Source: Phycisphaerae bacterium (GTDB taxonomy: Bacteria; Planctomycetota; Phycisphaerae; SM23-33). From it: a stretch of DNA of 45,223 nucleotides. The notes beneath the pieces were generated by a model. The model had not been told where the DNA came from. It saw nothing but the letters and a program-made list of their open reading frames with translations, and made no database searches. Below are positions 6,288 through 32,018 of this stretch, piece by piece (positions within the stretch are counted from its first letter, which is position 1; each line of letters begins with the position of its first letter). The stretch spans positions 1 to 45,223 of the forward strand of contig DRGC01000040.1 in assembly GCA_011050235.1 (NCBI GenBank), read 5' to 3'. Made by a program: the position numbers and the translations under genes.

Positions 6288-6324
6288 GGCCGGGCCCTTT
6301 CGTCGGCAACCCGCGTGCCACCTA

Positions 6325-21960: not shown

Positions 21961-22003
21961 CAAGAACAAACAGCGGACAGGCGGAATCCTATCGCGCCTG
22001 CCC
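21961..22003 (-). terminator. Rho-independent terminator after dnaK
   Basis: On the minus strand GGGCAGGCG pairs with CGCCTGTCC (21995-22003 with 21975-21983, one G-U), with an 11-base loop, followed by GCTGTTTGTTCTTG. It lies 27 bases after the dnaK stop and makes dnaK a single-gene transcript. Confidence 0.8.
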
Positions 22004-22030
22004 CTTGATTTCAGCGATCTTTTACTGAGG

Positions 22031-23950
<1,920 letters not shown>

Positions 23951-24027: not shown

Positions 24028-24042
24028 GCAATCACCGTGCCA
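24028..24042 (-). promoter_or_regulatory. Sigma-54 (-24/-12) promoter for dnaK
   Basis: The minus strand reads TGGCAC-GGTGA-TTGC, an exact match to the TGGCAC-N5-TTGC consensus with GG and GC ten bases apart, followed by T as the consensus prefers. It points towards dnaK and predicts transcription starting near 24016. An enhancer-binding activator would be required; no upstream activator site was recognised. Confidence 0.75.
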
Positions 24043-24170
24043 ATAGTGTGCCCCTTGCAAGCTCGACAGTTACGGCGACGCGCCCGCCAATCTGCGTGCC
24101 ATTTCGGCCGCCTCGCCGCCCCGGTCGGCCTCTTTGGCAGAGCGATTCCCGCCACGAGTCAGTTTGCGCA

Positions 24171-24220
24171 CAATAAAAGGCCCGCCGCGGGTCGCCTCTT
24201 GGCGGCATCCGCGGCGGGCC
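24171..24220 (-). terminator. Rho-independent terminator after the receiver-like gene
   Basis: A perfect 12-bp stem (24179-24190 with 24209-24220) with an 18-base loop is followed by TTTTATTG on the minus strand, 19 bases after the stop of the gene at 24239-24691. Confidence 0.88.
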
Positions 24221-24238: not shown

Positions 24239-24691
24239 CTAAGCCATATCCCTATGCGATGTGTCGCGGCCTGGACCTCCCCGCTCCCGGCCGCTCGAAT
24301 GTTGTCGTGTCAGACCCTTTTCCCCCTTCGGACGCAGGGCCGCTTCCGTCGCAGCCCGCAGTTCGCTGGCGTGAAGCAACGGCTTGGGCAGCACGTCGAA
24401 TCCCCTGGCCAACACCCATTTCCATACGCCAGCGGCCTCATCATCAGTCACCGTCACCAGGAAGGCGGCCCCTTCGAAGGTGTCGGTAAAGCGATCGGCC
24501 AGGGCCTTATCCCACGCCCCGATGTTGCGCCGCGACGCAACGACCAGGTGCGGCCGCCACTGCCGCACCAACTCCAGCGCCTTGGACGGCGAGGCCTCGG
24601 CAAGCACATCGTACCCGTGCTCGCGCAGGTCGCCGAAAGCGAAGGCCAGCAACTGCCAGTCTGAATCCGATATGAGAACCCGTCTTCTCAT
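24239..24691 (-). CDS. Degenerate response-regulator receiver (pseudo-receiver)
   Basis: A stand-alone CheY-like fold of 150 residues with a basic disordered tail. The start RRRVLISDSDWQLLAFAF gives the acidic pocket and LVTVTDD...GFDVLPKPL gives the Thr/Lys end of the site, but the strand that should carry the phosphorylated Asp reads HLVVASRRN, so the phosphoacceptor is missing. It is therefore probably not controlled by a histidine kinase in the usual way. GGAGA lies about 10 bases before the ATG at 24691. It is monocistronic, upstream of dnaK on the same strand but separated from it by its terminator. Confidence 0.78.
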   Translation of the reverse strand: MRRRVLISDSDWQLLAFAFGDLREHGYDVLAEASPSKALELVRQWRPHLVVASRRNIGAWDKALADRFTDTFEGAAFLVTVTDDEAAGVWKWVLARGFDVLPKPLLHASELRAATEAALRPKGEKGLTRQHSSGRERGGPGRDTSHRDMA

Positions 24692-25103
24692 GCTGCGTTT
24701 TCTCCGAGCGATTCTGCCTACAATGGCTCCGGCCCGTCCGACCAATCCCTATGTATAGTACGCAGATAGAGTGCTCCATGACAGCAACGATTATCTCTCC
24801 ACACCTCCGCATATTTCGGATAATCTGCCGACCGCGCGTGCTCGGTCACCGACCATGAAGCGACTAACAATCCTCGGTGCCAAGACATACCAAAAAGAAT
24901 AAAACCGGTAAAATTACACGTCTTTTCGATGTATCAAAGGTGATTTATCTCTACGTTACAAGGTTATTACCCTACAGTAACGCCCCCTCGCCGAATAAGT
25001 TGGACACCTGGCCGGCGGACAGAATGCAGCGCTGTCTTCGGCAAACCGACCGCGTATAATAGCAAGTGAGGCAGCCGCCCTGACACCGGCCGCTGCCAGC
25101 CAA
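24692..25103. other. A/T-rich divergent intergenic region
   Basis: This divergent gap between the receiver gene and the plus-strand gene at 25104 includes a stretch (about 24870-24975) clearly richer in A/T than its surroundings. It holds an inverted repeat CGTTAC-N17-GTAACG (24954-24982), a possible operator, and a TATACA-type -10 near 24747-24757 for the minus strand without a clear -35. A 60-codon plus-strand ORF starting with GTG at 24877 has no ribosome site and is not called. Confidence 0.5.
25055..25060 (+). promoter_or_regulatory. -10 box for the gene at 25104
   Basis: A consensus TATAAT lies 43 bases before the ATG. The -35 region at 17 bases (around TGTCTT) is poor, so an activator or extended contacts may be needed. 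Confidence 0.5.
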
Positions 25104-29004: not shown

Positions 29005-29838
29005 TCAGCACTTCCTTATTATCAGGCTGACCCCGTGCCACTGCCGTTGCTTGCGTTTCAGCAGCGCCAGCCCGCCCAGGGCCAACAGCCCCATCGTCGC
29101 CGGTTCGGGAATCGGCGTGATGGGTGCGCCTTCGGTCACCCATGCCGGGTCCCATTGGTCACCGGCAGGCAGGTCATCGTATCCGAGGAGACCGTCAGAG
29201 CCGGTAGCCACTGCGTCGTGCATGATCTGTCCCTGGCCCTCGTTCAATCGCCAGTAGGCCAGCAGGCCTGCCTCTGTCCCGTACAACTCGGAATCCTTCG
29301 TCGCCTGTATCTCCGCAGCCGTGCGTGGTTGACCCCAAATGCGAACTTCGTCGATCAACCCAACGAACCTCAGACCGCCAATGCCGTCATGGTTGTTGTC
29401 GTCGGCCCCCAGAAACACGGGAGAGTCATCATAAGGCCAGGGAGGATTGTACTCCCAGAAGTCAATCTGGATACCGTCCAGGAAAAGCTCTCGGTAAGAC
29501 ACACCGGGGCCTGTCGTCGTAGCCGTTAGGGCGACGTGATGCCAGCGGTTGAGTTCGACGTCATCCACACCAACTTCCAGCGCCATGCGCGTGTTTGGCG
29601 AAAATGCCATCCAGAACGAGTCGCTCACGCCCGTTCCTGTGGGTTTCGTCATCAGGTGGTTCCAACTGCCCGGCGTGGAGTAGGCCTTGAACCACAATTC
29701 GATAGTGAACTCACTGGGTCGAAGAGCAACAGTGTCAGGAATCTTCGCAAACTCACCACCGTCAAAACGCAACGCCCCTGCATGTGCAGACGTGGAGATC
29801 AGGGCCGCGATCAAGCCTGTGAGCAGTCTCCTACGCAT
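29005..29838 (-). CDS. LamG/concanavalin-like PEP-CTERM secreted protein
   Basis: The 277-residue protein has a short signal peptide (LLTGLIAALISTSAHA), one LamG/laminin-G-like jelly-roll domain (FTIELWFKAY, RWHHVALTAT, IDEVRIWGQPRTAAEIQ, LLAYWRLNEG) and a PEP-CTERM tail beginning IPEPATMGLLALGG with LLKRK after it. About a dozen residues (QWHGVSLIIRKC) run past the basic cluster, longer than usual for the tail. Carbohydrate or glycoprotein binding is typical of the fold but unproven. Its ATG overlaps the stop of the SUMF1-like gene by 8 bases (ATGCGTAG), with GAGGAG in front, so it is translationally coupled. Confidence 0.88.
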   Translation of the reverse strand: MRRRLLTGLIAALISTSAHAGALRFDGGEFAKIPDTVALRPSEFTIELWFKAYSTPGSWNHLMTKPTGTGVSDSFWMAFSPNTRMALEVGVDDVELNRWHHVALTATTTGPGVSYRELFLDGIQIDFWEYNPPWPYDDSPVFLGADDNNHDGIGGLRFVGLIDEVRIWGQPRTAAEIQATKDSELYGTEAGLLAYWRLNEGQGQIMHDAVATGSDGLLGYDDLPAGDQWDPAWVTEGAPITPIPEPATMGLLALGGLALLKRKQRQWHGVSLIIRKC

Positions 29839-30874
29839 GGGCTCTCCTCTTCAGCAACGCCAGACTGCCCAGACCCAGCAACCCCAGCGCGGCGGGCTCA
29901 GGGACCTCGGAGACGCGAAACCCGACGTTGAGGCTCTCGGCCGCCGGGGAGCCGTAGTCGGGGAGCAACGCGAGCAGGTAGGGGGCGTAGATGTCGAACG
30001 ACCCGCCCCGAAAGCCGCGATACGACCCGTACAGGATCGCTTCGTTCCACTCGAACACGTTACCGCCCATGTCGAACGTGCCATAGGGACTCGCGGAGTT
30101 CTCGAACTCACCGGGCTCCGTACGGTAGTACGGGCTGCCGATGGATCCGCTGTCGTCGAAGTCGTTGAAGTTGGCATTGTTGCCGGGATCGGGGTCGATC
30201 AGATCGTGGCTCGGAAGGGAGTCGCTGCTCGTGGGGTAGTCGAAGTAGTTGCCAGTCGCGCCGTCGTTCTTGTGATAGGCGGCCTTGTACCATTCATCCT
30301 CTGTGGGGATGACGTAGCGAGCATCGGCCTCCCGCGTTACGGCCAGAAGGTCCGCATCGCTGGTCGCGCCGTTGAGGAAGTACGAACCATCTTCGGTCGT
30401 CGTCAGGTCCTGGCTGCCGGTGGGCATGCCGTTGGTCAGCCAGTTGCTGAATCGTGCCGAATCACCCCAGGACACGTAGTTGGGTGGGCGGTCTTCCCAA
30501 TCGGCCGCCACTGCATAAGTGTAGCTGCCGGCCGAGCCGCTGCGCTGGATGTTGCACCCCCAGACACCCGACGGGTCGGCCATGTTCGTGTTGTACAGCC
30601 CATACGTATCCGTCGCCGCCACGGCGTTGAGGAACTCGGTGTACTGACCGGCCGTCACCTCGAACTTGCCGATGTTGTAGGCGTAGTCCACGCCGCCGTA
30701 GCCGTCGCCGTGGGTGTCGTCGGCGTTGCCCGGATTGCCCACGGTCATCAGCGGCATGTCCATGGTCGTGGCGAAGTCCACCACCGCATCGCCCGACAGG
30801 TCAGCCCGGATACCCGCCTGGACCAGACCCACAGATACGATCAGAACGGCTGCTGCGAAAATAGCCCTTCGCAT
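29831..30874 (-). CDS. SUMF1-like (FGE-sulfatase fold) PEP-CTERM secreted protein
   Basis: A 347-residue exported protein: signal peptide (IFAAAVLIVSVGLVQAG), a SUMF1/EgtB/PvdO-type domain (YNIGKFEVTAGQYTEFLNAV, VSWGDSARFSNWL, YVIPTEDEWYKAAYH, GNVFEWNEA, YRGFRGGSFD, NVGFRVSEV) and a PEP-CTERM tail (VPEPAALGLLGLG). It retains one Cys in the mature protein, so the Cys pair of genuine formylglycine-generating enzymes is absent; it is more likely a binding or structural domain. The ATG at 30874 follows GAAGAGGAG; the longer open frame upstream crosses repeat A and is not used. First gene of the operon; a good promoter lies at 30955-30983. Confidence 0.88.
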   Translation of the reverse strand: MRRAIFAAAVLIVSVGLVQAGIRADLSGDAVVDFATTMDMPLMTVGNPGNADDTHGDGYGGVDYAYNIGKFEVTAGQYTEFLNAVAATDTYGLYNTNMADPSGVWGCNIQRSGSAGSYTYAVAADWEDRPPNYVSWGDSARFSNWLTNGMPTGSQDLTTTEDGSYFLNGATSDADLLAVTREADARYVIPTEDEWYKAAYHKNDGATGNYFDYPTSSDSLPSHDLIDPDPGNNANFNDFDDSGSIGSPYYRTEPGEFENSASPYGTFDMGGNVFEWNEAILYGSYRGFRGGSFDIYAPYLLALLPDYGSPAAESLNVGFRVSEVPEPAALGLLGLGSLALLKRRAHA

Positions 30875-30954
30875 GATGCGCTCCTCTTCAATCTCTCGGA
30901 TGTGATGGCCGGCCCTGGCTGATGCCCGTCCTCCCTGACAGCCGGATGCTACCA

Positions 30955-30983
30955 CGTATAGCAATTCGCCACAATCGGGTGAA
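30955..30983 (-). promoter_or_regulatory. Sigma-70-type promoter for the SUMF1-LamG-HAF operon
   Basis: The -35 TTCACC and -10 TATACG are 17 bases apart, and the -10 is extended (TGC before it). Predicted start near 30948, about 74 bases before the ATG. Repeat A lies 33 bases upstream of the -35 box. Confidence 0.6.
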
Positions 30984-31016
30984 CACCTTACTCCTGCAAG
31001 ATTGTTGGTGGGGAGC

Positions 31017-31094
31017 CGGCCCGCAGCAGGCCGCGATGGCGGCCGGTGCGGCGTGGTGGGGGGTGGTGGGGGTTTTCGCGTGCATTCATCTGCG
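31017..31094. repeat. Dispersed intergenic repeat, copy A
   Basis: About 75 bp nearly identical to copy B at 37176-37245, apart from a short G/T-rich expansion in the middle and a few substitutions. It fills the divergent gap between the SUMF1-like operon and the membrane protein gene. The rest of the gap (30875-31229) holds the promoter above and the ribosome site of the plus-strand gene. Confidence 0.8.
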
Positions 31095-31229
31095 GCGACG
31101 CGGAAGCTTTTTGGGCAGGTCGGGTGGCCGGGAAGCGCCGATTGAAGTATGCTCGTCTCATCGGCTGGCCCGACAAGCGTGTGATGACCACGCTGCCGGC
31201 GAGGGAGCTTCGTTGTGAAAGGGATACAC

Positions 31230-32018
31230 ATGCAGACATTCAAGACATGGTTGACGGTATTGGGAACGGTCCTGATTGGCTACTTCCTGACGATGGTTGT
31301 GGCGGTCTACAGCGTCGTGCTGATTCTTGCCGGAACGAGAGGCGAGATTGTGTATGTGAGAATATCACCGTGGTGGGGATGGAGTTGGCGCTACTCCCAC
31401 GTCACCGAATGGGGCGCTTTGGGCTGGGGAGAGCCGCTGCTCACAGTCATCGTTCCGCTGCTGATTTTCTTTACGATATGGACCCTCCGCAGCCGTCTGA
31501 GTCTGTGGGCGCTGACCTTCGCCGCAGTCGCCATGGGTGCGATGGGCGCCAACCTGCTCAGCAACACAATCACCGAAGTGATCGGCGCCGAATGGTGGGT
31601 GGTCATGGGGACAACCAAGGCATTCCTGGTGGGGGTCAGTTTGGTCCTGTGCGTCGGGTCCTTGATCCTTGCGTTGCCGCTGGCAAGCATGCTGGGACTA
31701 GGACGCGGGCGATGCTCTCTGCTCAAGACGCTCTTGGTGGTGGGCACTCCGATCCTGTGCTATCTGGCAGCCATGATGGCCTACCACTACACCGACAAGC
31801 CGGACTTGCGCATGGTATGGATCGGATACCTTGCCGTTGGAGCAGTCGTGGTCGCGGTGGGCGCGCTGCTGAGTCATCTGGCAGCGCCACTGTTTGATCG
31901 GCCGGAAGTAAAGGCTCGTTCGCCGCAAATCACCTGGCTGACCGCTGGGATGAGCCTGCTGGTCGCCGCAGTGCTCATCACACTGTCGGCCTTGTCCCTG
32001 TACCCCTTCGCCAAGTAG
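31230..32018 (+). CDS. Seven-TM membrane protein of unknown function
   Basis: A 262-residue protein with seven clear hydrophobic segments, for example VLIGYFLTMVVAVYSVVLI, LLTVIVPLLIFFTIWTL and LLVAAVLITLSALSL, and short loops. A Trp/Tyr-rich outer loop (ISPWWGWSWRYSHVTEW) follows the first helix. I recognise no family. Two starts are possible: ATG 31230 with AAAGGG 6-7 bases ahead (chosen) and GTG 31215 with GGGAG 7 bases ahead. It stands between two PEP-CTERM genes transcribed the other way, but nothing in it suggests an exosortase: no conserved Cys, Arg or His pattern of that family was seen. Confidence 0.7.
   Translation: MQTFKTWLTVLGTVLIGYFLTMVVAVYSVVLILAGTRGEIVYVRISPWWGWSWRYSHVTEWGALGWGEPLLTVIVPLLIFFTIWTLRSRLSLWALTFAAVAMGAMGANLLSNTITEVIGAEWWVVMGTTKAFLVGVSLVLCVGSLILALPLASMLGLGRGRCSLLKTLLVVGTPILCYLAAMMAYHYTDKPDLRMVWIGYLAVGAVVVAVGALLSHLAAPLFDRPEVKARSPQITWLTAGMSLLVAAVLITLSALSLYPFAK

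Follow-up and report, generated by a model that had tools for sequence, protein, structure and literature searches.

The window, a stretch of 45,223 nucleotides, comes from a phycisphaeran planctomycete with an assembly of 4.0 Mb. On its reverse strand lies dnaK (22031..23950), which encodes a protein of 639 amino acids from an ATG start and is assigned to Pfam HSP70 and to the NCBIfam DnaK equivalog PRK00290 (969 bits). Its Shine-Dalgarno sequence, GGGAGAG, occupies 23966-23960 on the same strand. Further upstream, at 24042-24028 and again on the reverse strand, we find TGGCACGGTGATTGC, an exact match to the sigma-54 (-24/-12) promoter consensus TGGCAC-N5-TTGC with GG-N10-GC spacing. An earlier note on this DNA had described the consensus, spacing and orientation correctly; it placed the site 78 bases from the dnaK start, where we measure 77 bases up to the ATG at 23950. 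The predicted transcription start of this promoter is at about 24016 (reverse strand).

The promoter region is isolated by an intrinsic terminator of the preceding gene at 24172..24220 (reverse strand; -37.8 kcal/mol, z -4.05), composed of a GC-rich 13-bp stem followed by TTTTATT. Another hairpin, followed by GCTGTTTGTTCTT, forms a possible weak terminator 3' of dnaK (21976..22004, reverse strand). The earlier note derived a single-gene transcription unit from a downstream terminator: as the strong terminator stands upstream of the promoter and the hairpin following dnaK reaches no more than moderate strength (z -2.2), the single-gene unit is plausible but not proven.

The gene upstream of dnaK (24239-24745) was compared with the receiver-like protein that precedes groES (see below); they show no similarity, and kinship between them was rejected. 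Elsewhere in the window, genes at 29005-31243 (reverse strand) encode PEP-CTERM-tagged Laminin_G_3 and FGE-sulfatase-like proteins.

Conservation of the sigma-54 promoter

Taken alone, the exact match is weak evidence. Dinucleotide shuffles give a chance expectation of 0.17 exact matches per window, so that the earlier estimate of about 0.1 was somewhat low; a second exact match is present in the window at 6306-6320 (reverse strand), and in the whole genome TGGCAYN5TTGC occurs 11 times and its reversed control 10 times. Such uninformative genome-wide counts were dropped as proof of the dnaK site, whose significance comes from its conservation at dnaK.

We surveyed the 185 bp before the dnaK start, allowing at most one mismatch to the sigma-54 consensus. 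A site was found at 30/30 loci of the family and order relatives, at 20 of the 21 from the remaining Phycisphaerae and in 21 of 36 genomes from other planctomycete classes; with permuted consensuses the figure was 0.24-0.28 for each set, and 0 or 1 sites came from the opposite strand. Class-wide, dnaK orthologues thus keep the element, as do more than half of the genomes sampled from other classes. A strict composite pattern, joining the promoter to the enhancer described below, retrieved 15 contigs from about 85,000 genomes, 14 of them phycisphaeran dnaK upstreams, and in the source genome it occurs only at dnaK. The nearest named relatives retrieved by motif search include Phycisphaerae bacterium SM23_33.

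The machinery that the earlier note would have looked for is encoded as well: rpoN was identified on contig C76 (PF04552, E 3.3e-57), together with six full enhancer-binding proteins bearing the Sigma54_activat domain.

Three other sigma-54 matches may be mentioned. The second match of the window, TGGCACGCGGGTTGC, lies about 33 bases 5' of a membrane-protein ORF (MEVATSARQESRRW...); the TGYCA palindrome is absent there, and the match may be due to chance or serve another activator. Elsewhere in the genome, perfect sites stand before a periplasmic-binding-protein-like gene (L036, G000:C42:41949-41963) and before a NusG-like gene (L040, G000:C70:10510-10524), each within about 1 kb downstream of an enhancer-binding-protein gene.

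Upstream activator sites

A palindrome, TGYCA-N3-TGRCA (also given as TGYCR-N3-YGRCA), is located 5' of the promoter in 31 of the 42 dnaK upstreams from class and phylum relatives, against 0.165 expected from shuffled sequence. The distance from its centre to the -24 box is mostly 75-145 bp, with a full range of 75-190 bp. In the family of the window organism, two enhancer copies are found at a spacing of about 30 bp, and each retains a single intact TGCCA half.

In the window, upstream activator site 1, TGCCAAAGAGGCC (24127..24139, reverse strand), has one perfect half-site, TGCCA, and its inner half is degenerate. Its centre precedes the -24 GG by 92 bp; the site is kept in the family and has two mismatches to the class palindrome. 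Upstream activator site 2, GGCCGAAATGGCA (24097..24109, reverse strand), is made of a degenerate inner half and a perfect TGGCA half-site, its centre preceding the -24 GG by 62 bp and lying 30 bp from site 1. Among the family members in which both half-sites were matched, nearly all show a spacing of 54-57 bp between site 2 and the -24 box. Two in-phase dimer sites, about 60-90 bp before a -24/-12 promoter, are what textbooks describe for a sigma-54 enhancer.

Only one half of each copy in the window fits the palindrome. In the source genome the compact palindrome was found in 10 places against 15 for the control, none of them the dnaK enhancer, both copies of which are degenerate, and this line of evidence was dropped. 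A different inverted repeat, TAAC...GTTA (e.g. TAACACCTTGCAAAACAAGATGTTA), is placed between enhancer and -24 box in the dnaK upstreams of several relatives (L010, L013, L020 and L022), possibly as the site of a second regulator or a bending site.

Other members of the regulon

Run over 397 Phycisphaerae, a looser composite of promoter and enhancer matched 53 genomes, compared with one match in the reversed control. The downstream genes, named by reading their translations, include dnaK, hsp20 (L090, L091, L092, L107), groEL (L093, L100) and a gene for an htrA-like protease (L103), as well as the gene of a small receiver-like protein with groES and groEL behind it. Both promoter and enhancer are present at the hsp20 genes of G009, G035 and G037.

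In the source genome, a perfect sigma-54 site (C62:90799) with a palindrome heads the operon of the receiver-like protein, groES and groEL; two of the eleven perfect sites of this genome therefore front its two main chaperone units. Its hsp20-like gene has no sigma-54 site and gives a broken match; it was rejected as a member. From these patterns we conclude that dnaK would belong to a regulon of classic heat-shock genes served by sigma-54 and an enhancer-binding protein.

The receiver-like protein itself (L255:2403-2840, on G000:C62) is small and degenerate. As the first gene of a sigma-54-headed groES-groEL operon, it is also seen in L108, L112 and L113, from the family of the window organism.

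A candidate activator

One of the six enhancer-binding proteins stands out as the candidate activator. It is an NtrC-type response regulator encoded on contig C62 at about 20.0-21.5 kb (locus L247:4551-5951), in which Pfam recognizes a receiver domain (REC), the AAA+ domain Sigma54_activat and a Fis-type helix-turn-helix. It scores below every NCBIfam equivalog cut-off shown; NtrC is the best of these (TIGR01818), with 424 bits against a cut-off of 558.6. A histidine kinase belongs to the same cluster in the source genome, and is directly 5' of the activator in G027, G045 and G464.

The candidate has a reciprocal-best orthologue in all seven comparison genomes, with 46-68% identity, and it is the only enhancer-binding protein of its genome that has one of at least 46% in all seven. 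Comparison genome G049 encodes just four enhancer-binding proteins, yet the orthologue is one of them.

In ten genomes, all from other planctomycete classes, a homologue of the activator is linked to dnaK. The best homologue is directly upstream of dnaK and on the same strand in eight (G466, G408, G399, G420, G428, G433, G467, G415) and about 1.8 kb upstream in G490, while in G440 it is a lower-ranked homologue (46%) that adjoins dnaK. In a tree, the window organism's activator and all eight dnaK-adjacent proteins included form one clade (support 100/95), whose recognition helices are nearly invariant, GERTLYRKIKEY. The sister clade, from G414, G432, G455, G477 and G495, has the helix LRTLQRKLKEY; these five genomes are without a clear sigma-54 site at dnaK.

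A phylogenetic profile was tried as further evidence: among 29 genomes from outside the class, the dnaK site is found in about 12 of 18 with the activator and in 5 of 11 without it, a difference that is suggestive and not significant. Activator and site do not track significantly, partly because several genomes in which the activator adjoins dnaK have no clear sigma-54 site between the two. The argument for the activator therefore rests on synteny and orthology, which make the C62 response regulator the likely activator of the dnaK promoter. Self-control of the activator gene was also considered and set aside, as we found no sigma-54 site with palindrome before it.

Alternative controls of dnaK

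DnaK is usually needed at all times, and an additional basal promoter of another type could be in use in unstressed cells, to which the sigma-54 promoter would add the stress-induced part. We regard this arrangement, compatible with our main explanation, as a possible if rather doubtful addition. It has a parallel in the hrcA-grpE-dnaK operon of Chlamydia trachomatis, with tandem sigma-66 and sigma-54 promoters (PMC8762339, citing Soules et al. 2020). Against it, the 290 bp 5' of dnaK, including the interval between the terminator and the gene, contain no good sigma-70-like site, where the phycisphaeran sigma-70 consensus is itself not established; moreover, low-level sigma-54 activation could supply the basal DnaK. 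We infer that a second promoter is absent.

It is quite unlikely, in our estimation, that the promoter is real and served by another of the six enhancer-binding proteins, responding to a stimulus other than heat, such as nutrient or envelope stress. Planctomycete genomes encode many similar proteins, and the stimulus is not readable from sequence; however, a single one of these proteins is orthologous across all compared genomes, its clade adjoins or neighbours dnaK in the ten genomes of other classes, and the regulon is composed of classic heat-shock genes.

Sigma-32 and HrcA/CIRCE are the established systems of dnaK control in other bacteria, and, with 0.17 expected, a chance exact match within the window is not improbable, but that dnaK should answer to either of them here, its sigma-54 match being accidental, is extremely improbable and already largely refuted by conservation, the match being kept class-wide at a fixed distance from a second conserved motif. 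HrcA was detected in none of 60 genomes, the source genome included, and in 7 of 14 control genomes. As the earlier note had stated, CIRCE is not found: within 290 bp upstream of the window dnaK the best candidate for TTAGCACTC-N9-GAGTGCTAA has 8/18 mismatches, and no surveyed planctomycete dnaK upstream contains one. In the same 290 bp, the best candidate for a sigma-32 promoter (CTTGAAA-N11-16-CCCATNT) has five mismatches, no better than shuffles.

Discussion

With good confidence, we read the conserved promoter and enhancer sequences, the members of the regulon, rpoN, and the activator's domains and synteny with dnaK as signs that an enhancer-dependent sigma-54 promoter drives dnaK, with the C62 NtrC-type protein as activator. 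The sigma-54 dependence put forward in the earlier note thus finds support in the conservation of the site, in rpoN and the six enhancer-binding proteins, and in the absence of HrcA from 60 genomes. To that picture we add what the note had not described: the upstream activator sites, the recurrence of the arrangement at groESL and hsp20, and the candidate activator, syntenic with dnaK in other classes.

We propose that RNA polymerase with sigma-54 would bind 24042-24028 as a closed complex. Dimers of the NtrC-type regulator would occupy the two TGYCA-N3-TGRCA-like sites, 62 and 92 bp upstream, and open the complex through DNA looping and ATP hydrolysis. We infer that the regulator is probably phosphorylated by the histidine kinase of the same cluster, upon heat or misfolded-protein stress. 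In this genome the same device would drive groES, groEL and the receiver-like gene before them; in relatives it would act on groEL, hsp20 and the htrA-like gene. The sigma-54/activator system would then take the role held elsewhere by sigma-32 or HrcA/CIRCE. The sigma-32 (RpoH) and HrcA/CIRCE regulons have the same targets, namely dnaK, groESL and small heat-shock proteins, but the transcription proposed here depends on sigma-54 and an activator, not on a heat sigma factor or a repressor. With NtrC, AtoC and ZraR, the candidate shares the REC, Sigma54_activat and Fis helix-turn-helix domains and the histidine kinase in the same cluster; it differs in being tied to dnaK, and not to nitrogen, acetoacetate or zinc genes. 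Studholme and Dixon (2004) reportedly dealt with the activators of Pirellula.

Predicted sigma-54 promoters are reported as statistically enriched at the GroEL, IbpA, GroES, GrpE, DnaJ and DnaK COGs in Planctomycetia, and less so in Phycisphaerae, in a study whose enrichment at chaperone genes covers Planctomycetota and Bacteroidota (PMC12316311, PLoS One 2025). The available passages of that study name no enhancer motif or activator for the chaperone regulon; here we propose both, and add the groESL and hsp20 members and the absence of HrcA. A likeness in mechanism can be drawn with Chlamydia, from the same wider PVC group, with a sigma-54 promoter at the dnaK operon and a two-component NtrC-type activator; its AtoS-AtoC pair rises on heat shock (PMC8762339). 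Chlamydia, however, keeps HrcA/CIRCE and a main sigma-66 promoter, whereas our searches detected no HrcA here, and dnaK is separate from hrcA and grpE. With these predictions and the chlamydial promoter at hrcA-grpE-dnaK on record, it would go too far to call our proposal unprecedented. In the available literature passages and searches we met no trace of the enhancer motif, of which protein is the activator, or of its synteny with dnaK; these parts appear to be new.

In Rhodopirellula baltica, dnaK, groEL and hsp20 are heat-induced and rpoN itself was not seen to be regulated by heat (PMC2754498). An unchanged rpoN is compatible with sigma-54 control, since the control acts through the activator.

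The heat-shock response of Phycisphaerae is probably run by sigma-54 and a dedicated activator, not by sigma-32 or HrcA. On a larger scale, we give even chances to the idea that Planctomycetota ancestrally exchanged sigma-32 and HrcA for a two-component sigma-54 master heat-shock system, with the TGYCA-N3-TGRCA operator and a kinase sensing heat or misfolded proteins.

Teaching usually places dnaK under either a heat sigma factor or a repressor. Transcription by sigma-54 requires ATP hydrolysis by its activator and can leak only little. If true, its use across a whole phylum would amount to a third way of dnaK control and, with enhancer and activator named, the proposal is open to direct tests on planctomycetes in culture. 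It would further account for the failure to link the heat-induced chaperone genes of R. baltica to any heat sigma factor.
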